A stretch of 64,000 nt of DNA from Nannochloropsis oceanica. Lineage: Eukaryota > Sar > Eustigmatophyceae > Eustigmatales > Monodopsidaceae. This document shows, piece by piece, positions 19,829 through 47,081 of the stretch (positions within the stretch are counted from its first letter, which is position 1; each line of letters begins with the position of its first letter). Both the position numbers and the translations under genes were made by a program. The notes below the pieces were generated by a model. The model was given only the letters and a program-made list of their open reading frames with translations, was not told where the DNA came from and ran no database searches. The stretch lies in assembly GCA_004519485.1 (NCBI GenBank), contig CP038131.1, positions 393,501-457,500 of the forward strand. Direction: 5' to 3'.

Positions 19829-22328
19829 TGGGCTTTGCCAATCATGACCTAACATGATCACCCCCACGGCCAGCCATTCCTTCCGACCCGGGGGATCTCA
19901 CTCCTCACGCATTTGGACCACGTTGTCAGATCTCTTGTCACCGCGAAAGAGAACTGAGAAAGAGGGCGAGGAGAGGCATGGCCTTGCGCCCCGGTACCCA
20001 ACGACAGCACTACCGGACAACGCCTGAAGCATTGCAAACGTAGTCAATGGCAGTGCCGGCAGGATCACATGTGCAAGCTCTCAGGGTCTTGCAGGGCTGC
20101 ATGCTCCCTGTAGTGCAATGCTACTGCCACTGCATCACCATACTCACTCGTATCCACGTTTTATCCCAAGCTTACTTGGTGTGCTCATCATTTTCCCCAT
20201 CTACCGACCCCATCTAGACACAGGTGTGTTTACTCGAATCGACTTTAATTCCGTCCAATCATGAAGACTGCCGTCGTATTGGCCACCCTCTTTTGCGGCG
20301 CTCAAGGCTTCTTGGCGCCCAGCTTGCCCACGACGGATGTTGTTGCCCGCAGCAACAGCGGGCGATTGACCACCAAGATGGCTGAGGTGGCGGGCGAGGA
20401 GCCTTTTGTCCCCGACATGGACCGCCGCAAGCTCATGAATAGCATTTTGTTGGGCTCCGTGGGCTTGAACGTTGCCGGTCTGGCCGTCCCTTACATCGCC
20501 TTCTTCGTGCCTCGCACGGGGGGCGGTGCCGGCGGGGGACTGGTCGCCAAAGATGCGCTAGGTGATGACGTGAAGGTGTCGGGCTGGTTGGCCACCCATC
20601 AGGCGGGCGATCGCTCCCTAGTGCAGGGCCTTAAGGGCGACGCCACGTATCTGATCGTGAAGGAGGACAAGACCATTGAGAACTACGGCTTGAACGCCGT
20701 CTGCACGCATTTGGGATGTGTCGTGCCCTGGAACAAGGCCGAGAACAAATTCATGTGCCCGTGCCACGGCTCCCAGTACGACAAGACCGGCAAGGTCGTG
20801 CGTGGCCCCGCCCCGCTCTCCCTGGCCCTCGCCCACGTCAACGAGAATGACGACAAGGTCGTGCTGACGCCCTGGACAGAAACGGATTTCCGAACGAACG
20901 TAGCCCCTTGGTACGTACCGACCGGTGCAGTGATGTATTGTGGTTGGGTGGGCAACTTGTGGCTGTGCCGCTCAGATGCATTCACCTCTTTCCTCTTTCC
21001 TCTCCCCCTCACGACACAGGTGGAAGTAAATCCTCTTGTGGACAACATAAGGGAGCTGCGCATAGAAACTGAGAAGGAAAGCGAGATACAGACACGTATG
21101 GATAGGCAGAGAGGGTGACTTTTATATCATTCTTTGTAAGCGATCTCCTTGGTCTGGAGAGTAGACGGTGGCAAAAAGGAGGACCCCGCCCAGAAGTAAA
21201 GCACCGGGGGAGTAGTTGGATGGTTAGAAAGGAGAGAGTTGATGCCAACCAAGAATGTGTAAATGTGCGTGCATGACTTTGTTTGTCTCTTTCTGTTGTG
21301 TCCGTGCAGTGTCGAATGAAAGTGAGGATGGTGCATCTTGGGGACTCCTTTTGATAAAACCTTGTGATATTGCATGCATGCTCGCACGGGCAGGGGGAAA
21401 GAGGTTGCTTGAAGTTCCCCTAGAACAAACTAAAAAACAAAAAGAAAAATATGAGACTTTATACCATCTCTAAAATTGAGAAAGTGTATTGTTTTTGCAT
21501 CATTGCGTGAATCCACAAAGTGGGTTGTACAGGCCGGTCAGCGGGGTTGGATTCCCCTCCATGTCCCGCCGCCCCCCTCCTTTTTCCTTCGAGACGTGGT
21601 TAGTGACTTGTTTTCTCGCTCTGTAAGGTGACCTCCTTCCAATTCAATTGATGCATGGCCCTTGCTCCACCTCGATTACTCGCCTCTCGTCACATGCGCT
21701 AGGGGACATGAATGAGACCTGGACATGTCAGCCGCGACACGATGTCTCGGGACCTGGGGCTCCCGGACTTGTCATATGTTCCCATCCAACCACTCCAGTG
21801 GGTTGACCCATGCAGTACTCCTCCGTGCCCATCAGTTCAGGCACAGATACGGTAGCTTCCCCTCTACCACTCCGTGTCCCTGGGTCTCCATTGACAAGCA
21901 AACAAACGGGAACGGAGAGATCGAGACATAAGAATTGACCACGTCGGTCCGACAGCTGCTTGCTCCACATGTTTTTGTTCATCAGTTGGTCGGAAGTTGA
22001 AGAAAACAATTGTTCTCCCTCGCTACCCCCGGCTACTTCTACGCTCCTTTTGTTTTGGGATTCACGATGCAATCGCCACTCGCTTCGACGCAACTCACAC
22101 ACCGTGGACAGGATCATGATAAAACGCACGCCGCTGGCAAGCCTTTCCTCGGAGGAGACAACACATAGAGACTATCGGGAAAAGTTGGGGCCTCACCCGT
22201 GGTTACCAAGTGTCGTCTCTAGCCGCGCTCTTTCTACGGCGTCCGAGGTTTCTTGCCGCCTACTATATTTACGGAAGATGTGCACACGGACTCATGACGT
22301 ATCGTATTGTTACGGCATTTGGCTATGT
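19829..22328 (+). repeat. petC tandem unit 1 (2,500 bp)
   Basis: First of four head-to-tail units. Each begins with the same TGGGCTTTGCCAATCATGAC text, about 430 bp before the petC start codon. The unit holds promoter, gene and about 1.3 kb of non-coding downstream DNA. It matches unit 2 at an exact 2,500-bp offset; at least one substitution is visible in the 5' part (CACGCATTTGG here, CACGTATTTGG in unit 2). Confidence 0.95.
20261..21029 (+). CDS. petC: Cytochrome b6f Rieske iron-sulfur protein, copy 1
   Basis: Rieske 2Fe-2S subunit of the thylakoid cytochrome b6f complex, which passes electrons from plastoquinol to cytochrome f. Two exons, 20261-20910 and 21020-21029, give 219 residues. 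The N-terminus has a signal peptide and ASAF-type site ([15 protein letters not shown]), then a transit region, a thylakoid-spanning helix ([20 protein letters not shown], about residues 64-83) with a Gly-rich hinge, and both cluster motifs, [11 protein letters not shown] and CPCHGSQYD. The [11 protein letters not shown] and TPWTETDFR text is the b6f type, not the mitochondrial bc1 type. The last intron starts GTACGT and ends in a pyrimidine tract plus ACACAG. Splicing makes the end PWWK, matching the conserved PWW end of PetC. Unspliced, the frame runs 285 residues into junk. Confidence 0.95.
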
Positions 22329-35030: not shown

Positions 35031-35757
35031 CGCAACCCGAAGACCTTAGTCGTCCCTATAGTGTCGGGTGGTAAATGGTGCTTGTGAGGGATTGTTTTGT
35101 GTGACAGCGACGCAGCGGCAAACGTCACGCCATCCATCCCCCTCTTTACATTACTCGATGATTCTCGATGAGATGAGGACGGTGCTTGAGGTCAAATTGG
35201 TAAAAATTATGGTTTGGGAGGATGGGTAAGAGATGATGATCCGACGGCGTTCCCCTCCCGTCTGTTTCCTATCCCCTTCCCCAGATCCTTCATCCTTCAT
35301 CCCTGCGGTTTTGGGATGGCGACAAAGTGTGCTAGCTCAAATTTTTGAGACGATCCAATCAACTTGCACCAAGGGCCCCAAGGTCACGGCTGTTCCCGGG
35401 AATTATACTCAATCAACATTGCCCACCCACCCACCCCACCAAAGGAAGGAGTTCCGACGGCGCTCCTCTCCTATCTATATGCCACATCCCTTCCGGCGGG
35501 TAGATTGGAGACTGGGGCACTAGCATCTTGTCAGTGGCGTACCACAGGAGCTGACCGTTATTCCTGTGGTTTGGTAAGATTGGCTGGAATGGTAAGATAG
35601 AGGTCTTTGATAAGAGTTTTGCGGTTGCGTATGGAGGTTGCTGAAATTCTCTCCCTCGAGACCTCTACAACCCACCCACCTTTAATTCCATATCTCAACC
35701 CCAAGTGGTCCAATCATAAACTTTGAAGTAAAACTTACTCTGCCTGTGCTGTCAACT
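35031..35757. other. Intergenic with degenerate short repeats
   Basis: No gene. Loosely repeated motifs occur, such as TCCGACGGCG(T/C)TCC at about 35238 and 35455, and GGTAAGAT twice at about 35573-35597. These look like the remains of a minisatellite. Confidence 0.35.
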
Positions 35758-35992
35758 AGTTCTTTTTGAGTTCCTACATCTCTCTAGAACTATCGCATGC
35801 AACCTGACGTCTTCGAGGACTTGCATACGAGGGGGAGCCTTCCAACAATAAATTGTTTTCATCCCTTATTTCCTTGTCCGAGTTTTACTAGCGACTTTGA
35901 CAGGTTTTTTGACCTGGCAAAGTCCCCGGACGGCCCACACAGGGCCAGGAGGAGAAGGGGGGGGAGGATAAAAGAGGAGGTCAGCGGGAAGG

Positions 35993-36166
35993 CTACACAT
36001 AGAGTGTTCGCATATCTTGCCGCGCTTGACCAAACCGAAGATCATGGGGACGAGCTTCTCCACAGACCATACTCCTGTACACCCGCAGGATGTTACGTGC
36101 CCCATTGCCGTCCCGAGACACGAACTGTTCACAGGTGTTACACCAATACAGTCCTCGGAAACGCAT
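35993..36166 (-). pseudogene. Fanzor C-terminal zinc-finger and RuvC-III fragment, copy A
   Basis: About 57 codons plus stop. The fragment reads RGLYWCNTCEQFVSRDGNGA followed by RNILRVYRSMVCGEA. It has the CxxC half of the TnpB/Fanzor zinc finger and the following RD-x-N-x-A-x-N-I, which holds the third catalytic Asp of the RuvC nuclease. Fanzors are RNA-guided DNA nucleases carried by eukaryotic transposons. Only this tail remains; the rest is replaced by low-complexity DNA. The residues agree with copy B except at a few sites, so the copies are related by a fairly recent duplication. Confidence 0.72.
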
Positions 36167-36169
36167 CGT

Positions 36170-36500
36170 CTCCTCCTGCTCCTCCTCCTCTTCCCCCTTC
36201 TTCTTCTTCCTCTTCCTCTTCTTCTTCTTCTTCTCCCTCTTCTTTTTCTTCTTCTCCTTCTTCTTCTTCTTCTTCTTCTTCTTCTTCCTCTTCCTCTTAT
36301 TCTTCTTCCTCTTCTTCCTCTTTTACCTCTTCCTCTCCTCCTTCTTCTTCTTGTTCGTCTTCTTCTTCCTCCTCTTCTTCTCCTCCTCCGCCTCCTCCCC
36401 CTTCTCCCCCTCCTCCTCCTCCTCCTCCACCTCCTCCTTCTCCTTCTCCACCTCCTTCTCCTCCTTCTCCACCTCCTTCTCCTCCTTCTCCTTCTGCCAT
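36170..36500. repeat. Homopyrimidine tract (plus strand), CTT/CCT rich
   Basis: About 330 bp built of CTT and CCT triplets with hardly any purine on the plus strand. It gives artefactual open frames in several frames (poly Ser, Leu, Phe, Glu, Arg). Confidence 0.95.
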
Positions 36501-38469
36501 TCTCGCAATTGGGTTTAGACGCTGCCCACAATCGAGGTGTACCTTTGTCTGTGGTTTGAGGAGGGGGGGGGGGGAGGGGGGGAAATAGAGAGGAAGTGTG
36601 ACGGCTCTAATGGAGGGTGTGGTGTTGTCCTTGGCATAATGGCAAAATGTAAGTTGTAGTCGCGGTGAATGGGTGGGTAGGAAGGAGGGAACGGAGGGGG
36701 GGGGGGGATAGGTGGGTGCGGCGGCAGTAAACAAAACAGCTACGTGCCACGCACGCCTGCCTCGGCGCCCTCCTGTCCCTTTGGTGTGGCCACGATACTG
36801 TCATTCACCTCCAGGCCGACGCGCGGGGGAATCAGCTGTGGGTGTGTGGTGTGTGGCGCATGGGTGGGTAGGAAGGAGGGAACGGACGGAGGGGGGGGGG
36901 GGGATAGGTGGGTGCGGCGGCAGTAAACAAAACAGCCGCGTGCCACGCACGCTTGCCTCGGTTCTTGGGAGGAGGGGAAAACATTCTACTGCACCTGGCA
37001 TTCTACCATCATGGTAGTGTAGGAGCTGTTGTCCAACATGTAACAACTCGCCTGGACTAGCCTGAAGCCAATGCCCAAGTACGCATGCCTCGTCCCAGAA
37101 TGTCACAAAAAGCTTGTCAAACTATTTTTTGGTAGAAGAAGAGAGGAAGAGTCAACGAATGCACTTTCCTTGGGGGGAGCTCGGCGATTCGTTCGGATTT
37201 GGGGCGGGATGTGCTCACATTATCTGACGCACAGGCCAGATTTCATACCATGCTTTGTTTCTGCTTGGCTTTCATCCACGGCCGTATATATATGCTTTGT
37301 TTCTGCTTGGCTGTCATCCAAGACCGTATACGTGGGTTGTTGACTCAAAAGACGACGGGACTTTCCTTTCTAGGACATTCGGGTAGCGCCTGCCTTGCCG
37401 AGGGCGCACATACCACCCAACGGAAAAGCAGATGGACGCACGCGCTGGAATCACCGAAAGATCCGACAACTTCGAGCCTGGCCTTGCCGTTCTCCCCAAG
37501 GGATCCTGAGAATGTGCGGCCTGAAAAGCAGGATACCTTCTTCTGTGTCCAATTTTATAGTTGCTATCATGCTAAAATGATCGCCTGGCAATTAATCATT
37601 GCCAGGTGTACCTTTTGGTACATCTCCAACACATGGTATGTGCCCTGCAACGGGCACATACCAAAATATTTACGATTTTCACCTTTGTGTTTTTCCCAAG
37701 CACCACCCCGCCACTTGACCTGTCGCACAAAAGATGAAAAAGATTCAGGTCTACATATTTCACTACGTGACTTGGTGTGTCTTTTACCTCCGTGTTGTTC
37801 ATTTGGCGTTCCCAAGTAATTTCTAATTAATTTTAGGCCGCGAATTAAGACTTGTGGCCCTAAGCCATATCCTTCGGCCCGAATTGCCACACACTCCCCC
37901 TTTCATTTGGGCGGGGATTCGAGACTTGTGTCCCAACATCACTTTCTTGGGTCCAAAATTTTGATTCACACTCCCTTGGGCCGCAGTTCGAGACTGACTT
38001 TTCGTCCCAATTTTCTTCGATCCAAATCTCGATGTACACACTGCCAAATCTCGGGATATCCGCTGTCCTGTCCCCAATCTCAAGATCTCTACCTTCGTTA
38101 TCTGCACATAAACTATGCATCTTGAAAAGTATAACGGCTCGGACTCATTAACAACATTATGTATGTCTATAAAAGCAAATATGATAAATTAAAAGAATAA
38201 TGGTCCAGTAGGAGGGAGGGAGATGGAGAGGAGAGGAGGGACGCAGTGAGGGAGGAATAGAGATAGAGCAAGGCTTTGAAGACGATCTCAAGAAGTGAAA
38301 GAAGGGTGGGAATTAATGAGGAAATGTCAGAGCGACATCAAAGCGATTGAAATAATAAGGCATCAAAGTACTTGAGAAGATTTATTCATTTCCTCACACG
38401 GCGTATATATTTATAGGAGTCGGTGCCAAAAAAATACAAGATAAAAAAATTCCATGCGTCGGGGCATGA
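36501..38469. repeat. Long non-coding block with several short repeats and hairpins
   Basis: No supported gene. Items: a direct duplication of about 100 bp (36667-36766 and 36858-36962); a shorter direct duplication of about 43 bp (37250-37291 and 37292-37335, CTTTGTTTCTGCTTGGCT); three consecutive hairpins at 37584-37663; and a degenerate minisatellite at 37820-38070 with recurring motifs like TTCGAGACT and TCCCAA. Confidence 0.6.
37584..37663. other. Cluster of three perfect hairpins
   Basis: Stem 1: CCTGGCAAT (37584-37592) pairs with 37598-37606, 5-nt loop. Stem 2: TGTACC (37607-37612) pairs with 37617-37622, TTTT loop. Stem 3: TGGTATGTGCCC (37634-37645) pairs with 37652-37663, 6-nt loop. 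All stems are perfect. This may be a structured RNA or element end; no gene assigned. Confidence 0.6.
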
Positions 38470-38845
38470 TGTGCTTTGGTGTCGATAGGATCAAAAGATC
38501 TCCTTGTTCTCCTTTTTCTTGTTCCTTTTCGACTCCTGCTTTATTTTCTTCCTCTATTTCCTCTTCTCCCCCTGCTGTTTCTACTTTTATATTCTCTTCT
38601 ACCCGTCATCTTTGTTCTATTTCTTTTTCTCGTTGTTGTCGTTGCTGCCGTTGATGAAGCGGTCGTCATCGTGTTAAGATACTCTTCTTCACACTTCTCC
38701 TCAATCTCCTCCTCTTCCTCCTCCTCGTTTTCCTCTCTTTTCTTTCTTCTTCTTTTTCTTCTTCCTTCTTCTCTTTACAATCATTTTTATATCCTCTTTT
38801 TTGTGCTTGCAGGTCTCTCTCTCTTGTCATTTTCTCATTCTTATT
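38470..38845. repeat. Pyrimidine-rich low-complexity stretch
   Basis: CT-rich plus strand, mostly TTCT and TCCT words. Open frames here are compositional artefacts. Confidence 0.85.
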
Positions 38846-39309
38846 AATTCATCTCATCAACATCGTTCTTTCTCACATGTCTCCAAATCCTCCTCGCTTC
38901 CCTCCCTCCCATAGGCTAGGCCTCTAACCCATGGGCGTGGGCAATACTGATTCTGACAAAGCTTGGTATCCTTGGAGGACATAATAATAATGTCGATGGT
39001 TATTGTTGTGCCGCCTAATGCTACGATGGAGATGGGTAGAATAAAATTCAAGGCATTCAATTATGGTCAAGGCGACAGCATGCCCCGGAGAACACGAAAT
39101 ACCCTCGAAATAGCTGGGTAAGAGCGAGCTATTGAATCAAAGCTAAGAGTGCCTGCAGACCTCCTCGAGAACCAACCAAAGAGTCTCCACAGACAGACAA
39201 AGTAGGAACAAAGTAAGGGGAAAATTCCTCATCCAAAACTTCACACAAGGATGTTTTCAAGAGCAGCCTCCCTCAAGCCGATTTTTGTATCATGCGCCAT
39301 GGGCGAGCA
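38846..39309. other. Unassigned region downstream of the threonine synthase remnant
   Basis: No recognisable coding sequence. The missing C-terminal third of threonine synthase was looked for here and not found. Confidence 0.4.
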
Positions 39310-40606
39310 GCGAATGAGAGGACGATCACTTCAACGGGCGTGCCTATGTCCTGCCGCGCCCGTAGGCACAACAAACGAGAGGAGTGGCAAGGGGGAAGCA
39401 GGTACTGACCCTACTTTCCTCCCTCCCTCCCTCCCTCCCTCCCTCCCTCCCTCCCTCCTCGGGGGGAATGAGGTGGAGGTAAGCATAAAAATAGTGAAAG
39501 ATTTGAACCAGGAGACGCACGATGTTGACACTGTTGAGACTGCCTAGGCAGTGGTGGGACCTGAAGGGAGGGAGGGAGAGAAGGACGGAGGGAGGGAGGG
39601 AGGGAACGAGGGGTTAGTTAAGTGAGCAGCGACATGTGTGGGTAGGTAGACCTGTTTTCACAAATGCTAAGGGAAGGAGGCAGGGATTGAGGGATCGAGG
39701 GAGAGAATAGCACGCGCTGTCAAGCGCGTAGAGAGCGAGGGAAGGAGCGAGGAAGGGAGGGAAGGAGGGAGGGAGGAAAAGACAAGCAGACAGGCCATAC
39801 CTATAATCTTTATCCTGAAACAATTCGGCGATAGGTTCGTCCAGATCATCGCTTGTCCCCTCCACTGCCACCACCCGCACGTTCCCCCTCTTCTTCCCTT
39901 CCTTCTTCCTCCCCCCTCCCCCTCCCCCTCCCCCTCCCTCATGCGCGGCCAGCATCTGAGCTTCCTGCAAGGGACTGACCCTCCCGAGGGGGTATAATAC
40001 TATCACCCTCATGTTCTCTTTGCCCTTAACTGCCGCTGCTGCTGAAGGCCCCGTGTCTCCTGATGTGCCAACTAGAAAGGTCATTTTTTGGTGTTGCTTG
40101 GAGAGGTAGAAGTTGAGGACATGAGCTAAGACTTGCATGCCTAAGTCTTTGAATGCCAAGGAGGGCCCGTGGAACAATTCGGCGATATAGAGGGAGGGAG
40201 CAGAGGAGGGGGAGGAGGAGCAGGAGGAGGAGGAGGAAGAGGAGGAAGAGGAGGAGGAGGAGGACGACGACGAGGACGAAGGCCACGGCAAGGCCTTGAA
40301 TGTCACCACCTCGGGCGTAGCAAAGGAGGCAAAGCTGGCGTCCACAATCTCTTCCAATGGCACTTCCTCTTCGGTCTTCCCGTCGTCCTCGTCCCCGTCG
40401 TCCGTCACAAACAAAGCCAAGAGCCTGGTGACTAATTGGGGATATGAGAGGCCTCTCCATTCTTCCAGCATCGCAGGCGTCACCTGCGGGATGCGCTCTG
40501 GTAGGAGCATGCCTCCATCCGGAGCCCATCCTGCTAGCACGGCTTCACGAAATGTGAGGCGCGACGAAGAGGAGGAAGATTCTCCTCGGGTGCTAATGTA
40601 CCGCAT
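39310..40606 (-). pseudogene. Threonine synthase-like gene, apparently damaged
   Basis: PLP enzyme that converts O-phosphohomoserine to threonine, class with the yeast Thr4/THNSL N-terminus. Exon 1 (39801-40606) begins MRYISTRGESS and has AGWAPDGGMLLPERIPQVT, YIAELFHGPSLAFKDLGMQ (the PLP Lys is in FKD) and LVGTSGDTGPSAAAAVKG. It joins in phase to an exon starting at 39539 that reads SLNSVNIVRLLVQIFHYFYA. A (GGGA)n run at 39418-39458 follows, and after it FVVPTGAAG is in another frame. GTPVEVIV is in a third frame, with about ten residues missing between. Nothing matches the last 200 or so residues. A Ser run and a Gly run interrupt exon 1. Either a decaying gene or a region with sequence errors. 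An acceptor-like site upstream of the ATG suggests a lost or distant transit-peptide exon. Confidence 0.7.
39418..39458. repeat. (CCCT)n tetranucleotide repeat inside threonine synthase
   Basis: About nine to ten CCCT units on the plus strand (GGGA on the coding strand). Each gain or loss of a unit shifts the reading frame of the surrounding exon by one. Confidence 0.95.
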
Positions 40607-41153
40607 AGGGCGTTGCGTCGTGACTATCAATACTCCTGTGGTATGGCTGAAGGGGGGAGAGGGAGGGAGGAGGAGAGTAAGGTGTATTGAGCAAAGAGCC
40701 AGGCAGGTGATAAATAGCCGGGTAAGTACAAAGGGGTGGGTACATGTGCCTGCGTTGGCCCCTCAGAACGCGAGACGAACGAACGAACGAGCGGAGCGGA
40801 GAGACTTCGCCTCTTCTCGTGTCAAGTCACGACAAACACCACACACGCAAGTTTGCAACAAGGCGATGTGGATCTGTGAGTGGGTGTACGCACTACGTTG
40901 ACGTGAGGTGGCAGTCCTCGAGGCATAAAAATGACAAGGAACGAGATCTACTTCGCCCCAAAACCGGCATGGACAGAGTATCAATTTTCGTTGCCGCCAA
41001 GTAATGCTCTACTCTGTCTCATCTTGTGACCTTGGCTCGCTTTGAATTCTTCCCCTCTCGTTCTTGATTTCGATTGTCCTATCTAATTCCTCTCTTATTA
41101 CACTCACCACGAACACACACCACACAGGCAGATCTTTCCTCTCCCTGCACATC
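40607..41153. other. Divergent intergenic region
   Basis: Between threonine synthase (minus) and the ferredoxin-like gene (plus). May hide a 5' exon of the former. No other gene seen. Confidence 0.35.
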
Positions 41154-41832
41154 ATGACTACCATGCTTCGCCTGTCCGTTCTCCTGGTCCTGCTTTCCAT
41201 GGTAGCCTCCTTCCTAGTCCCCGCTCCCTTGCCGGCCATGACCTCTGTGCCACAGCAAACTCGGCGAGGGAAGATGATGATGCTGGGCATGTTTGGGAAG
41301 AAGTCGGCCGGAGGCAAAAAAAAGACATTTACGGTGACGGTGCAACAGAAGTTTTACAAGGACGCGGAGCTGGAAGTAGATGCGGGCGCACCAGTGAACC
41401 TGCGCAAGGAGCTCATGAAGAATAAGATTGACATCTACCCGTTGCAAGGCAAGATCTACAACTGCGGCGGAGGGGGCCAGTGCGGTACCTGTGCCGTGCA
41501 GATTATCAGTGGTGCCAAGAATCTTAAGTAAGTCTTGAGTAGTGAAGATGGTAGGGGCGGGTCTGGAATGCTCTTCCCGTGCAAGAAGGTTTTTGTTCAA
41601 TCATTTACTCCCCGATCTCTTTCCTTTGTTTGAGCATATTCAATATATTCAATTCTTCTCGCATTTGCCTTACGACTCATTTCGTTTCTTTCTAAATGTT
41701 AAATTTCATGCAAAAACTAGCCCCAAGTCGCCCGTGGAGGTCAAGGCGCTAGGCGGGAAGAGGGGAGACGACATTCGATTGTCATGCTGCACACGGGCCT
41801 CGGGGGACGTGGTGATTAAGACGAAGCCTTGA
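41154..41832 (+). CDS. Plastid 2Fe-2S ferredoxin-like protein
   Basis: Two exons, 41154-41527 and 41721-41832, join in phase (AAC Asn codon at the junction) to 161 residues. The N-terminus is a signal peptide with an ASAF-like site (LLVLLSMVASFLVPAPLP). After a basic linker comes a beta-grasp ferredoxin domain (KKTFTVTVQQKFYKDAELEV). Its cluster motif is NCGGGGQCGTCAVQI, spacing CX5CX2C, and the fourth Cys is in IRLSCCTRASG. The text is closest to the plant PNSB3/NDF4-type ferredoxin-like protein rather than to photosynthetic ferredoxin (CX4CX2C). Function in this alga is unknown; electron transfer in the plastid is inferred. Confidence 0.85.
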
Positions 41833-42394
41833 CTGATTGACTGACTAGCTTTTCAATGACTAAGAAGATATGACCGGGAAGGCACCAACGATGATGACTT
41901 TGCAGGAGGTTGGGGTCCACAAGAGCAATACCCAAAACGATGTGAGGAATGATGATAAAGAAGGAATCACGTACTGCCGAAGGAGACGGAGGAGGGGGGA
42001 AAGAAGAGATCGGAAAGGAGAGAAAAGAAGTAGAGATCATATACTGATCTGTATTGTGTCACTTCCTTTTTGTAGAATGGGCGGAAAGGCTTATGTGTGT
42101 GAGAGTGAGTGTGCGTTGAGCGTGTGTGCGTGTGCCCCGGTGCCCCGACTGATCTTTTGTTCAAGTGAAAAGCTGGTCTTCAAAGCACGCGTGTATCTCT
42201 TTTTCCTAGACCAGTGCGAAGCAAGCTATCAAAAAAGTGGAAAAGAATAATGACGAAAAAGAAAGGGGGGGAAACTAGGATGAAGACTTCGCCTCCTCCA
42301 CACATCCTCTCGTACTTGTTCTTCACTCTTTTCTCAGAACAGGGAGAAATCATCCCTGTGGTCCTCCTATCTCACTCCAAAAGGCAACACCACC
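41833..42394. other. Convergent intergenic region
   Basis: 3' flanks of the ferredoxin-like gene and bystin. Purine-rich and GT-repeat patches; no gene seen. Confidence 0.4.
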
Positions 42395-44319
42395 TTAAAC
42401 AAAATTCATACTCCTCAACAAAGCGTTCTGCCCATTCCCCCTGAAATTGCTCGGATCTAGTTCCCCCCGACTCCGACAATTAAACAACTCCCTCCTCACT
42501 TCCGGGGTGATCTGGTGATGCGAATGCGCCTTCAAAACCTCTCTCAACCGCTCCTTGTCTTCCTTCGTGATTTCTTCCTTATATCGCTGCGCGAACACAA
42601 GTAAAGACTGATGCCAGAGCACCGGAAGGATGGGCCCCGTGCTGCTGGCCGTGGCACTGGTAGCTGACGTCAGACCCTGCCCTTCATACTCAGCGAACCG
42701 AACGAAGTAATCAGCCAGAGCATCGATGACGCGATATGGCAAGGTGTATTTCTTATTTAAGAGAGCCTTCAGAAAAATGGAACAGGGAGCGGAGTAGTCT
42801 CGGGCGGTGGCCAGCTTGAGGAGGACGACCGCGGCGTGGTTGACAGGAATCGAGACCTTTCCCAACACACTTCCGATGATGGTGGCCTCGCGGATTGTGC
42901 AGTCCCCGGATTGGATAAGCGGAAGAAGAATGCCCTTGAAGAAGGCTCCGGGCTTGTACATGGCTTTTTTTAGCGCTGTTTTAGTTTTTAATTCGGAGGG
43001 AGAGAAGACGGAGAGAGAAAAATGTGGGCTCTACGCATCGCATGATGCACAATTCGAAAGATGTGCGTATCCCTCGGATAGATCTATTCGATTTCCCCAT
43101 TCCTTTATAGTACGCACCCGTGTAATAGTGATAATTCAGGTTCTTGTTTGCGCAAATATCATCGCGGCACTTTTCAAGCAAAATCAAATTGAAAAATCGC
43201 TGCGAGAGCTTCGCATTCAGATTCGAGGCAAAAATGCGCGTCGCCGCAAAGGTAGCATGAGGAGTCCATTCATCCGGGCGTGTCAAATACACTACCTCCT
43301 CCCAGTTTGCAAGAGCAGGCAAGATTTTGAAAGCCTTGGGCAGCTTCCCCGCCGTATAGGTCTTGAGTAATTTTCCAATCTCCGCATACACCTCTCGAAC
43401 CTTAAGAGATATCTTGGAACGGCCCCCGTCTTCCCCTTCCTGCCCTGGCAGCCCCTTGACCTCTAGATCATCCTCCTCAGCTCTTTCACGGATTTTATCC
43501 ATAATAATATCGGCCAGAGTTCGGCGCTCCCCTGCGCCAATGTCCATGAAGGACGAGACAACACGTTGCTCCGCCTCTGATAGACCCCCCGCTCCCATAT
43601 GCACCGCTCCCTCCTTGAATTCCACCATTCCATCCTCCTCCTCTTCCTCATGCTCGTACTTGTCCATTTCCTCCACATCCCACCCCAGCGTCCTATAGGC
43701 GTCTTCTCCGTCCTCGTCATCGTCGCTGTCCATCGAGTCGCCATGCCGCCGGGCCTGTGTCTTACCACATCTGCCGCTGGACGCGAAGCGAACAACCCCC
43801 TTTCCAGCCTCTGCAGCTCCACCACGCTGGTGGCTACTGCGTTCTTCCTCAGCCATCTGCTTCGAAGCCTGCAGCAAGATCTTACGGGAAAGCTTGGGGT
43901 CGAGAAACTTGTCAGACGCCCCCCCATCCGCGGCCTCTCCTTCTTCCTCCATCTGAGCATGGTTGCCTGCGCTTTCCTCGTCATCCCCCTGACCCTCAAT
44001 ACGCCGCCGCAACATGCGCTTTCGCTTCAGCTCCAGGACCCGTTCTTCCTTGGCGTCGTCGTCGAGCTGCGTAAATGGATGGGTAGATAAGGTTGTGGGG
44101 TGAGGAGGTCGAAAGTATTTTAGGTATTTGACGGTGGACGGGTTTATGATGCTCTGCACGGTACAGTACGGGTCTGCATTAGCATGCTCCATAAAGACCC
44201 CTCCCCGACCGTGCACTCTGAAGAAAGAAGTCAAGTCAATGTTTCGCTTGCCCATCTCTGTATCCAGGAAAACGTACCTCGACTGCCAAAGGCACCCGGC
44301 GCTTCTTTCCCTTGCCCAT
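42395..44319 (-). CDS. Bystin, ribosome biogenesis factor (Enp1)
   Basis: Three exons, 44278-44319, 43118-44066 and 42395-42975, join in phase to 523 residues. The short first exon encodes MGKGKKRRVPLAVE. The second has the acidic N-terminal half (LDPKLSRKILLQASKQ, RRTLADIIMDKIRE) and the family core AGKLPKAFKILPALANWEEVVYLT, ATRIFASNLNAKLSQRFFNL and LNYHYYTAL. The third continues KKAMYKPGAFFKGILLPLIQ, GSVLGKVSIPVNHAAVVLLK, KKYTLPYRVIDALADYF, LPVLWHQSLLVFAQRYK and TPEVRRELFNCRSRGE. Bystin/Enp1 is needed for 40S subunit assembly and export. Intron 1 is about 210 bp and intron 2 about 140 bp. Confidence 0.93.
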
Positions 44320-45172
44320 GAATTGTTGATGCGTGCAATGCTGTACGAAGAGGTGGGGTGCGTGTGTAGAGGGGACTGCATGAGAAGCCTGGAATATCAT
44401 TACCGAGAGCGCACCGCGCCAACAAACAAGCCAGCAACAAGCAACAACTTGCATCGGCCAACGGCTGCTGGCCCACACTCACACAACGACTTGCTCCTAC
44501 TGCCACTGAAGACCAACCTATCCGAGCGCATTAAAACCCGATGTGACAACACCCAGGCCTGGCAATAGTTGCACGAGAGGCCAAGAGAGCGCGAAAATGT
44601 CTACATTGGCCACCAACAAATACCCAGAACCCCCACAACCATCCCATCCAACCCTTCAAGAAGTTCTCCAACCCTACCGAGATTGTGCGCGAGATGCGAG
44701 AAACAGCGTGCGTGCGATTCACCTAGAGAAGTGAGAGGGTGGGAGGAACGTGAAAAAGAGGGGCGCTTCATAGTCTTGAAAGACGAGGAATCAGAGAAGA
44801 AAAGACACACCTGTGAGGAGAGGGTGTCAACCAGGAAATCGTGCTGCGGTGAGCCAGGAATAAACTCCTGTGTGCGTATGCATAAGTCAATATGTTTGTT
44901 TACACATATGATTATAATAACAGAGTTTGCTTCCATCCTTGTGAACCCCGCTCTTTACTTCACGTGCTCCCGCCTATTTCACCTTCTCAATACACAGCAC
45001 AACCCAGTGGACGGGCCCGCTGGTGAATGAGTACCAGGGCCCGTCATTCTCTGCCTCTTGCCACGGGCCCGGCATGGAAAAACGAAGCTGAGTGGGAACC
45101 CCACACTCCCCTCCGCTGTCTTCACCTGGTGGAAGGATGGAGGAGAGGAAAGAGTAGGGAGGGGATAGCAGG
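44320..45172. other. Intergenic, no gene seen
   Basis: 5' flank of bystin followed by unassigned DNA. Small frames only. The last part runs into the purine-rich tract. Confidence 0.4.
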
Positions 45173-45369
45173 ATGGATACAGGAGGGGATCCTGGAAGGG
45201 TAGGAGTGGGAGGAGTCGGGGCGGCCGGAGCGGCAACAGGAGGAGGAGGAGAGGGAAAAAGCGGAATCCCCACTATACTCTCTTTACCCGGAGAACAGGC
45301 AGCACGAGCACTAGCAACCATTGGTGCGGCACTTACTGGAGGAATGGAGAAGGGAAAGAGAAAGATAGT

Positions 45370-45586
45370 GAGGCTGCTCCGACGAGGGGGAAGAGGGGGA
45401 GGAGGAGGGGAAAGAGGGGCAGGAGGGGGAGGAGGAGGGGAAAGAGGGGCAGGAGGACGAGGTAAAGAAGGGGGAGGGGAAGGAGGGGGAGGAGGAGGGG
45501 AAAGAGGGGCAGGAGGACGAGGGGAAGGAGGGGGAGGAGGGGAAAGAGGGGGAGGAGGACGAGAAGGAGGAGGAGAAGAAGAGGAG

Positions 45587-45620
<34 letters not shown>

Positions 45621-46050
45621 GAGGAGAGGAAGAAGTAAAAGAGAAAGAAGAGGAAGAAGAGGAAGAAGAAGAAAAAGAAGAGGAAGAAGAAGAAGAGGAG
45701 GAAGAGGAAGAAGAAGAAGGGGGAGGAGGAGGAGGGGGAGGAGGAGGGAGACGAGGAGGGGGTGGAAGGGGAAGGGGAGGAGGAGGAGGAGGCGGTGGAG
45801 GCGGAGGCGGAGGCGGGGGAGGCGGAGGCGGAGGAGGATGCGGAGGCGGAGGAGGAGGAGGAGGAAGGGAAAGGGGAGGAGGAGGCGGAGGCGGTGGAAG
45901 CAGAGGAGGCGGAGGCGGTGGAAGCAGAGGAGGAGGCGGTGGAAGCAGAGGAGGAGGCGGTGGAAGCAGAGGAGGAGGAGGCGGAGGCGGAGGAGGCGGA
46001 GGCGGAGGAGGCGGAGGCGGAGGAGAACGAGGACGAGGCAGAGGAGGAGG
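45370..46050. repeat. Homopurine tract (plus strand), GGA/GAA rich
   Basis: Nearly 680 bp made of GGA, GAA and GGC words, with a 15-bp imperfect tandem motif (GGTGGAAGCAGAGGA) near 45890-45970. It yields artefactual frames of poly Gly, Glu or Ser on either strand. Confidence 0.95.
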
Positions 46051-46051
46051 T

Positions 46052-46473
46052 CATGGGCGGGCCATCCGAGGACTGTATTGGTGTGACACCTGTGAACAGT
46101 TCGTGTCCCGGGACGGCAATGGGGCACGTAACATCCTGCGGGTGTACAGGAGTATGGTCCGTGGAGAAGCTCGTCCCCATGATCTTCGGTTTGGTCAACC
46201 GCGGCAAGATATGCGAACACTCTATGTGTAGCGTTCCCGCTGACCTCCTCTTTTATCCTCCTCCCCCTTCTCCTCCTGGCCCTGTGTGGGCCGTCCGGGG
46301 ACTTTGCCAGGTCAAAAAACCTGTCAAAGTCGCTAGAAAAACTCGGACGATGAATAAGGGATGGCAATAATTTATTGTTGGAAGGCTCCCCCTCGTATGC
46401 AAGTCCTCGAAGACGCAGGTTGCATGCGATAGTTCTAGAGGGATGTAGGAACGACGACCACGACCAAAAAGAA
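46052..46473 (+). mobile_element. Fanzor (eukaryotic TnpB) remnant B
   Basis: Plus-strand counterpart of remnant A. The coding fragment and 240 bp of right end match A at about 95 percent by eye. They share the recognisable downstream text GTCAAAAAACCTGTCAAAGT and GATAGTTCTAGAG. Similarity ends near an AAAAAGAACTA motif at about 46473 (35758 in A). A copy-specific 9-bp or so insertion lies just before that end. The homopurine tract precedes it, as in A. Confidence 0.7.
46056..46231 (+). pseudogene. Fanzor C-terminal zinc-finger and RuvC-III fragment, copy B
   Basis: Fragment reading RGLYWCDTCEQFVSRDGNGA then RNILRVYRSMVRGEA, ending LYV and a stop. It has the same CxxC and RD-x-N-x-A-x-N-I signature as copy A. 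The open frame continues upstream for hundreds of codons only because the purine tract lacks stops; that Gly/Glu-rich text has no Fanzor features. Confidence 0.72.
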
Positions 46474-47081
46474 CTACCGAGAAACAGACCCACACCCACA
46501 CACACACACACACACACACAGACACACACACAGAGCATTCTTGCCCTTGTTACTATCAGCTTGTTTTACCACACAATATGCCCAGCAACAGTCACAAAAA
46601 CGAACACGAGAGGCCGCCTGATGTAGTAGTATACATCAGAGAGTTATGAACGCCATTTCAACTCCCGAGGTACACCGCCCAGCCCACTTTGACTTGACTT
46701 GACTTTTTCTTGAGTGCATCCTCGAGAGAGGGCTTTTGGCTTACTTGGCGGCTCTTGCCGAGCAAGTCCTGATCCCCTCCCCTCAACCTCACCCTCGACA
46801 TACAAAGCACAGCACCACACTAGAGAGCGACCACATTCACCACACCAAACAGAAAACTGGACATTACGGCCACACGGCTGTTCCTGGGAATAAGAAAGGC
46901 GCATCGCGCTCGGCGCCCCCCCAAAATGCAAGCTTAGCCGATGGATGCATCAGCGCCCTCACTCTGCTCCAGCTGGGCCCATGCCGCCCCGAACAGGCAT
47001 GCACAAGGGCTGCCATGCATGCATTTACTAAATCACTCATTTCCTGTTCTCACAATCCCCACAGGCCGTGAAAGCCCCACA
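46474..47081. other. Intergenic, with (CA)n microsatellite
   Basis: A CA repeat at about 46494-46530, then promoter side of the TMEM164-like gene. No other gene seen. Confidence 0.45.

Follow-up and report, generated by a model that had tools for sequence, protein, structure and literature searches.

Probable non-autonomous members of a Fanzor1-type family with a purine-split zinc ribbon in Nannochloropsis oceanica

The presence in a 64-kb stretch of the Nannochloropsis oceanica genome (the window) of two inverted fragments, each resembling the C-terminal end of a Fanzor, an RNA-guided DNA nuclease, and preceded by an almost pure purine tract, raises the question of what these fragments are and where the purine DNA comes from. 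A sequence-only reading had proposed that they could be truncated, non-autonomous Fanzor derivatives rather than random debris, with the gene body replaced by the purine tract. The inverted pair was confirmed: copy A (minus strand) and copy B (plus strand) share 290 nt at 97% identity (35870-36159 versus 46065-46354), which correspond to the surroundings of the zinc-finger/RuvC-III end, and have in common the signature YWC[DN]TCEQFVSRDGNGARNI and an identical stop codon. Their common right end, previously given as about 235 bp, measures approximately 236-245 nt. Upstream of the C-terminal end, purines make up 95% of a 342-nt tract in A and 93% of a 675-nt tract in B, and the maximum elsewhere in the 64 kb, on either strand, is 82% in 340-nt windows and 68% in 675-nt windows. 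The extents of both fragments, however, had been underestimated, as A reaches 38071 and B, whose homology to the family starts at 45132, possibly begins at 44683. Taken together, our results make it probable that A and B are non-autonomous members of a single Fanzor1-type family with a purine-split zinc ribbon, A being deleted and B 5'-truncated.

Copy A (35757-38071, minus strand) has its right end at 35757, and its left part resembles fuller left ends up to 38071. In the coding direction, it starts with a 5' leader (37006-38071) shared with the long copy C9 (to ~38031) and with L014 (to 38071), followed by a segment that replaces the N-terminal and RuvC-I/II coding part (36549-37006) and whose end is formed by a polypyrimidine run with CAG|ACAAAGGTACACC. 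Next come the first zinc knuckle, TKVHLDCGQRLNPIAR (36501-36548), the homopurine tract (36158-36500), whose length is 1 mod 3 and which contains one stop in the frame of knuckle 1, the second knuckle with RuvC-III (CNTC..RDGNGARNI) up to the C-terminus (35996-36157), and the stop codon with the non-coding right end, a candidate guide-RNA region closed by the hairpin TAGTTCT/AGAACTA (35757-35995). The gene body is missing because A carries an internal deletion junction, which is present at 8 inspected loci including A, 6 of them also with the leader. Copy A is an internal-deletion derivative that kept the leader and the 3' part and lost RuvC-I/II, and the proposal of truncated, non-autonomous elements is thus supported as anatomy.

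In copy B the body is gone because the element is 5'-truncated. The portion homologous to other copies (45132-46476, plus strand) includes a conserved non-purine island, IS2, in frame with the C-terminus (45164-45382), the homopurine tract, also in frame, mostly made of Gly/Glu codons and with zero stops in the C-terminal frame across its 675 nt (45383-46057), the second knuckle and RuvC-III to the C-terminus (46058-46228), and the stop codon and right end, with a terminal hairpin and the last bases GAACTA (46229-46476). A candidate target-site duplication, CTACCGAGA, occurs at 44674-44682 and again at 46474-46482, so that the element possibly starts at 44683; a rival 10-bp repeat, CGAGAAACAG, lies at 44697-44706 and 46478-46487. 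The ~430-450 nt upstream of 45132 had no match in the other fetched copies.

The two copies are far from alone, contrary to the initial count of two. The C-terminal peptide gave 106 matches in the 29.26 Mb genome (E<=0.001, 110/110 candidates scored), and since at least 5 copies appear as two pieces each, the family comprises ~100 copies. At the DNA level, where 40 of 195 initial candidates were scored, at least 41 matches had 91-100% identity. A 207-aa RuvC body query was matched over its full or nearly full length at 6 places in the genome. Some copies keep the body, but none of those examined was shown to be wholly intact: C4, open over insert and zinc ribbon, is 5'-truncated; C9 keeps its N-terminus but has two stops in the stretch that separates its knuckles, where C27 and C11 shift frame; C8 has an N gap and C15 a stop in the body.

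These copies support Fanzor membership. The RuvC-I region is missing from A and B themselves, and its DPG motif is present as IDPGRVN in C4, C8, C9 and C27. The signature of C4, D163-PG-x154-E320-x6-H327xxC330...C408xxC411-x6-D418, with 154 residues after DPG, then Glu, six residues and the first zinc ligand, fits the reported pattern of a Glu 120-160 residues past DPG, a spacing that appears in print as x(120160), and six before the zinc finger (Yoon 2023, PMC10711439). The RuvC-III motif CxxC-x(4,8)-D is found as CNTC-EQFVSR-D in C4 and is also present in A and B. In place of a CxxC-x(12,18)-CxxC finger, C4 has HxxC as its first half and a gap of 77 residues, because the purine insert sits there. 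Joining the knuckles in silico gave matches to PF07282, the TNB/OrfB zinc-ribbon profile, at 26.7 and 27.0 bits (cut-off 26.3), versus 14.7 for knuckle 2 alone, no match for knuckle 1 alone and 18.5 for the swapped order; the native sequences with insert stayed below the cut-off, at 12.9-14.4 bits (14.0 and 14.4 for A and B). The Fanzor origin initially proposed is thus supported by motifs, by the body of related copies and by the joined-knuckle profile, although the native fragments alone do not pass a profile search. The finger might instead have belonged to another family, and RYYR-CCHC (PF23674) is indeed the top native match of copy A (16.0 bits, E 0.012; copy B, 12.4), but it does not reach its cut-off of 27, gives 14.3 bits for knuckle 2 alone and is unlisted for the joined ribbon. 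Searches of Pfam, NCBIfam and PDB sequences with the RuvC body gave nothing significant, and the PDB matches of the whole C4 frame (best 60 of 77) fell mostly on its glycine-rich stretch. A search of IMG/VR with the body of one copy gave four pattern-matching stretches and no relatives.

The purine tract is a family insert within the gene itself, between the zinc knuckles, and not foreign DNA. Among 44 sequences examined, it occupies this position in 16/16 that keep both knuckles, with a length of 177-1270 nt that varies among nearly all copies, and copies keeping the RuvC body carry it at the identical place, as do the old copies L067 and L074, whose knuckle 1 is only 68-72% identical. The longer versions contain two conserved non-purine islands, IS1 and IS2, which recur among copies and are in the knuckle-1 frame in 5/8 (C8, C9, C11, C27, L060); the join of insert to knuckle 2 is in frame in 7/12 (hand count; chance p ~0.07). 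C4 can be read through the insert without a stop, as a Gly/Glu linker. The family protein would begin with an N-terminal region, continue with a RuvC core that has DPG and, adjoining the finger, the Glu, and end in a zinc ribbon in which an insert of near-pure purine codons (Gly/Glu/Arg/Lys), putatively translated, sets the two knuckles apart. As purine-only DNA encodes no stop codon, such an insert can grow or shrink by three-base repeat slippage and stay readable. In the accessible portions of the Fanzor literature, our search found no report of a split-ribbon Fanzor.

We considered whether the tract could instead be a microsatellite that expanded without meaning in copies already dead, in which case the family would be debris and neither its tract nor its right end would have a function today. 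The variability in tract length suits this reading, as do the stops or frame losses in A and several others, with no copy wholly intact, and the near-neutral RuvC body of five copies (0.90, 32 events). Against it, the tract keeps one site even in old copies, the islands recur, and the reading frame is open through the insert in C4 and across the whole tract of B. Moreover, divergence at C-terminal codon positions 1/2/3 is 0.034/0.023/0.120 (30 copies), a strong third-position excess that directly adjoins the tract and indicates that the spreading lineage translated its C-terminus and kept it under constraint. We regard debris as somewhat unlikely.

The copies have one common right end, mostly finishing in GAACTA with a terminal hairpin, and matches to a copy-A query including its flank end near 35757 at most loci. 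This right end possibly encodes a guide RNA, in which case it would supply the scaffold of an omega-RNA, and the 3' flank would serve as the guide. The right ends of truncated copies might even be live "ghost" loci, their putative guide RNA being used in trans by a Fanzor; in Spizellomyces punctatus, ghost RNAs have been reported to be functional (Saito 2023, PMC10432273). Consistent with this, divergence is lower in the right end (0.075) and its last stem stretch (0.052) than at third codon positions, and the right end of C8 folds better than shuffled sequences (z -3.05; 3/200 shuffles as good). However, transposition signals by themselves could explain this conservation, an intact source of protein is absent among the copies examined, and the alignment of 34 right ends gave a covariation term of 0.09, with both-side changes in 3/54 pairs, useful covariation being absent because the sequences are too alike. 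Live ghost loci appear unlikely, and it would be speculative, with a rather small chance of being right, to propose a Fanzor zinc ribbon with a long-kept, hypervariable, stop-proof purine-coded domain together with ~100 trans guide-RNA loci in 29 Mb.

As for mobility, the copies would transpose in a one-ended manner, driven by the right end, with CTA as the target site and the enzymes coming in trans, a proposal modelled on that for the Chlamydomonas elements CRe-1/2/3. Target repeats chosen by longest match alone were ambiguous, with controls reaching 10 bp, and a triplet test was therefore used: CTA plus at least 6 flank bases is repeated upstream of 5/34 copies, versus a mean of 0.21 and a maximum of 2 for the other 63 triplets. 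The remaining 29 copies lack a CTA-type duplication, most upstream stretches being only ~1.5 kb. The variable 5' ends, common 3' end and short duplications would also be expected of LINE-like, target-primed reverse transcription; this origin is quite unlikely, as the genome holds just two weak reverse-transcriptase traces, below cut-off, the 3' end is a hairpin and not poly(A), and L008, L014 and L022 keep both ends with differing internal deletions. A search for the Helitron Rep domain (PF14214) had no match, its control being silent too. One pair of ends 10.5 kb apart (C25) was considered as a possible autonomous element and rejected, since in the 6.0 kb of it covered the left end is followed by a host gene resembling an asparaginyl-tRNA synthetase.

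Two further explanations of the tract fare worse. Splice-like signals do exist, namely the pyrimidine run and CAG before knuckle 1 at copy-A-type loci, but they fall outside the tract; introns have a 3' pyrimidine run, which the tract lacks, and IS1/IS2 hold the knuckle-1 frame in 5/8 copies, so that a spliced intron is very unlikely. The earlier reading, in which the 3' ends of a Fanzor gene became joined to homopurine DNA of foreign origin, suits copy B, where the coding sequence beyond the insert is knuckle 2 to stop alone, but is hardly credible: the body is indeed absent from A and B, yet the tract of A is preceded by knuckle 1 and body-keeping copies also have the tract, hence it did not substitute for the body.

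The nearest known systems are the Chlamydomonas CRe Fanzor1 elements and the Spizellomyces ghost guide-RNA loci. CRe-1/2/3 of C. reinhardtii (Bao and Jurka 2013, PMC3627910) similarly have common 5' truncation, internal deletions, an intact 3' end and short duplications after a fixed motif (7-19 bp after TTTT; here CTA). They differ in that CRe ends match verified Helitrons, with no such match here and a silent control, in that our target triplet equals the last three bases of the element, and in duplication frequency (~70, 57 and 10% in CRe-1/2/3 versus 5/34); the parts of that paper available to us hold no mention of the split ribbon present here. The S. punctatus ghosts likewise have a right-end RNA region without a Fanzor gene; according to the available parts of Saito 2023 (PMC10432273), they carry 30-nt inverted repeats, unlike here, and their guide function was tested in cells, whereas our loci are known from sequence alone. 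Compared with the Fanzors described in the accessible text of Yoon 2023 (PMC10711439), DPG, the repositioned Glu six before the finger and CxxC-x6-D are shared, whereas here the first ligand is His and the knuckle gap, 12-18 in that definition, amounts to 77 aa in C4 and exceeds this in other copies.

Because the split ribbon misses the Pfam cut-off in its native form, profile-based surveys may undercount Fanzors. N. oceanica, transformable and amenable to knockout according to the literature, would with its ~100 right-end copies be a testbed for Fanzor1 mobilisation and for whether orphan right ends are live guide-RNA genes. The sole Fanzor1 family tabulated for this species is NOc (Bao and Jurka 2013, PMC3627910, Table 1), which by its listing there shares species and Fanzor1 type with the present family. 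A second, ordinary Fanzor-like lineage is also present in the N. oceanica genome.

The two C-terminal fragments, copy A on the minus strand and copy B on the plus strand, form an inverted pair, as the sequence-only reading had claimed: self-comparison of the window gave 97% identity over 290 nt (35870-36159 vs 46065-46354), a part that encodes YWC[DN]TCEQFVSRDGNGARNI, with a stop codon common to both. Upstream lies, on the coding strand, a tract of 342 nt with 95% purine in copy A and of 675 nt with 93% purine in copy B, the maximum elsewhere in the 64 kb, on both strands, being 82% in 340-nt windows and 68% in 675-nt windows. That reading had taken the tract as a replacement of the gene body; instead, it lies between the two halves of the C-terminal zinc finger (knuckles 1 and 2) in all sequences retaining both. 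Our survey covered 44 sequences (the two window copies, five contig pieces and 37 loci), of which 16 have both knuckles on one strand, always with a spacer of 177-1270 nt between them and a purine fraction of 0.66-0.96 (the spacer of the copy on contig C8 includes a 100-base N gap). The spacer is also present in loci L067 and L074, whose knuckle 1 identity is only 68-72%. The purine tract is an insert that belongs to the family.

The copy on contig C4 carries the signature D163-P-G, 154 residues, E320, six residues, H327-x-x-C330, 77 residues, C408-x-x-C411, six residues and D418. In PMC10711439 the Fanzor pattern is 120-160 residues from DPG to Glu (printed x(120160), taken here as 120-160), six residues, CxxC-x(12,18)-CxxC and 4-8 residues, to which C4 conforms except for His as first ligand and for the gap between the knuckles. 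The TnpB/Fanzor assignment did not stand on the native fragments, which scored 14.0, 14.4 and 12.9 bits with PF07282 (cut-off 26.3), but it did once the knuckles were joined in silico (26.7 and 27.0 bits, profile positions 13-60). As for a zinc finger of another family, the best native profile match of copy A was the RYYR-CCHC zinc finger, also under cut-off (16.0 vs 27 bits), and this was absent from the matches of the joined knuckles. Among the PF07282 controls, knuckle 2 alone reached 14.7 bits, the swapped order 18.5 bits over positions 41-60 only, and knuckle 1 alone gave no match. Because PF07282 passes only with the knuckles joined in native order, what the insert interrupts is most likely a TNB zinc ribbon. 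The RuvC-bearing body alone had no significant match among Pfam, NCBIfam or PDB sequences. Fanzor1 transposon families that include non-autonomous copies are a known kind of element, within which the split zinc ribbon, the purine-coded insert and the His as first ligand set this family apart. For N. oceanica, Table 1 of PMC3627910 lists a single Fanzor1 family, which may be this one. Another lineage resembling TnpB/Fanzor, now decayed (L001-L005, on contigs C1, C8, C4, C8 and C11), has an ordinary C4-type zinc finger and exceeds the PF07282 cut-off at five places; ALDPGVRTF and E-YGTSET-CSSC are present in L003.

In its longer versions the insert contains IS1 and IS2, two conserved islands of non-purine sequence; IS2 occupies 45164-45382 in copy B, in frame with the C-terminus of that copy. 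The C4 copy has a single 456-aa open frame from body to stop, including a Gly/Glu linker, and the first residues of this frame are flanking sequence because the copy is itself 5'-truncated. By hand count, IS2 runs in frame into knuckle 2 in 7 of 12 copies, barely over one third (p ~0.07), matches below 60% identity not being taken as IS2 and C8 and L016 being left out for N gaps; the C9 copy is in frame yet has two stops there. Knuckle 1 is in frame with IS1/IS2 in five of eight copies. A second Gly-rich insert occurs in the N-terminal region, where three copies have an IS1-like piece (57% identity). No wholly intact copy was shown among the family sequences examined. IS2 is duplicated in tandem, in the same frame, in L007 and L009, the latter also having IS1 twice.

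We take the genome (29.26 Mb, 32 contigs) to be that of N. oceanica on one of two sequence tests: of two Cas9 targets for the N. oceanica gene NoDGAT2B given in PMC8964759, one (23 bases including the PAM) has a single exact occurrence here, and the other, searched with its PAM appended, gave no match. A genome search with the last 57 residues encoded by copy B, in which all 110 candidates were scored, yielded 106 matches at E<=0.001, and since at least five copies appear among them as two pieces each, the family numbers about 100 copies. For the right-part DNA, scoring 40 of the 195 first-look candidates gave at least 41 matches, their identity being 91-100%. The 207-aa body query was matched entirely or nearly so at only six places (C8, C4, C27, C9, C15 with one stop, and C11, decayed); 3' ends are therefore far commoner than bodies. 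In the C-terminal peptide, pairwise divergence was 0.034/0.023/0.120 at codon positions 1/2/3 (30 copies), and replacement events number 52 and silent ones 35, where 2.72:1 would be expected (ratio 0.55, 40 copies); the coding frame was under constraint in the spreading lineage. For the body, the ratio of 0.90 (five copies, 32 events) is close to neutral, and divergence of the non-coding right end is 0.075 as a whole and 0.052 in the part that includes the last stem.

The proposal of truncated, non-autonomous derivatives was borne out as anatomy. From its right end at 35757, copy A extends on the minus strand to a leader that matches more complete left ends up to 38071; this leader is separated from knuckle 1 by a segment of 457 nt (36549-37006) that the long copy on C9 does not have at this position. 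The deletion junction of copy A, a run of pyrimidines plus CAG|ACAAAGGTACACC, was found at eight inspected loci including A, so that copy A belongs to a set of copies that have the deletion in common and most likely spread in that form; a ninth candidate (C23:405860) agrees by coordinates only. The leader is also present at six of the eight (A, L013, L018, L024, L029 and L047). Copy B shows family homology from 45132, without everything preceding the insert. The unique segment of copy A contains a 70-nt repeat (36696-36765 and 36892-36961, 196 bp apart, 96% alike); L062, which lies upstream of the C11 copy, begins with sequence of this segment in the opposite orientation. Mirrored copies occur tail to tail on C11 (L013, right ends ~12 bp apart) and head to head at C27:183187-186672. 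At L089 (C25:48500-54500) a left-end fragment lies directly upstream of a host gene, presumably for an asparaginyl-tRNA synthetase.

With a query extending beyond the right end of copy A, matching ends near 35757 at most loci. Most copies terminate in GAACTA, others in GAGCTA, GAATTA, AACTTG or AACAAG; a hairpin, TAGTTCT...AGAACTA, closes the end, and the flank differs from copy to copy. Among 34 copies with distinct flanks, chosen by end motif, CTA plus at least six bases of 3' flank was repeated upstream in five (C8, C4, L023, L028 and copy B), against a mean of 0.21 and a maximum of 2 for the other 63 triplets; at seven bases the values were 3 vs 0.03. The other 29 had no CTA repeat, within only ~1.5 kb of upstream sequence for most. 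The repeat lies ~100 nt (L023) and ~450 nt (copy B) before the first family homology. In copy B it is CTACCGAGA (44674-44682), with a competing 10-bp repeat, CGAGAAACAG, 23 bp downstream; given that distance and competitor, this 5' border is only a candidate. A pyrimidine precedes CTA in all five, the element's own end being ACTA; this base could allow a nuclease to distinguish target from element, five cases being few.

The best supported mechanism, by analogy, would be one-ended spread driven by the right end with enzymes acting in trans, as PMC3627910 describes for the Chlamydomonas Fanzor1 elements CRe-1/2/3. The genome profile search gave no match to Helitron Rep, the control being likewise silent, and reverse-transcriptase traces were weak. 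It is also possible that the right end makes a guide RNA, on the model of the Spizellomyces punctatus ghost loci, guide-RNA loci without a Fanzor gene (PMC10432273). For the C8 right end (250 nt) the folding energy is -81 kcal/mol (z -3.05), equalled by 3 of 200 shuffles, but the covariation term over 34 rows is only 0.09.

Elsewhere in the window, three tandem gene copies occupy 19.9-27.0 kb (plus-strand ORFs at 20261, 22761 and 25261; period exactly 2500 bp), with 99-100% identity per 100 bp, either a recent amplification or an assembly artefact. We take their 285-aa product, with CTHLGC/CPCHGS motifs, to resemble the plastid Rieske protein.
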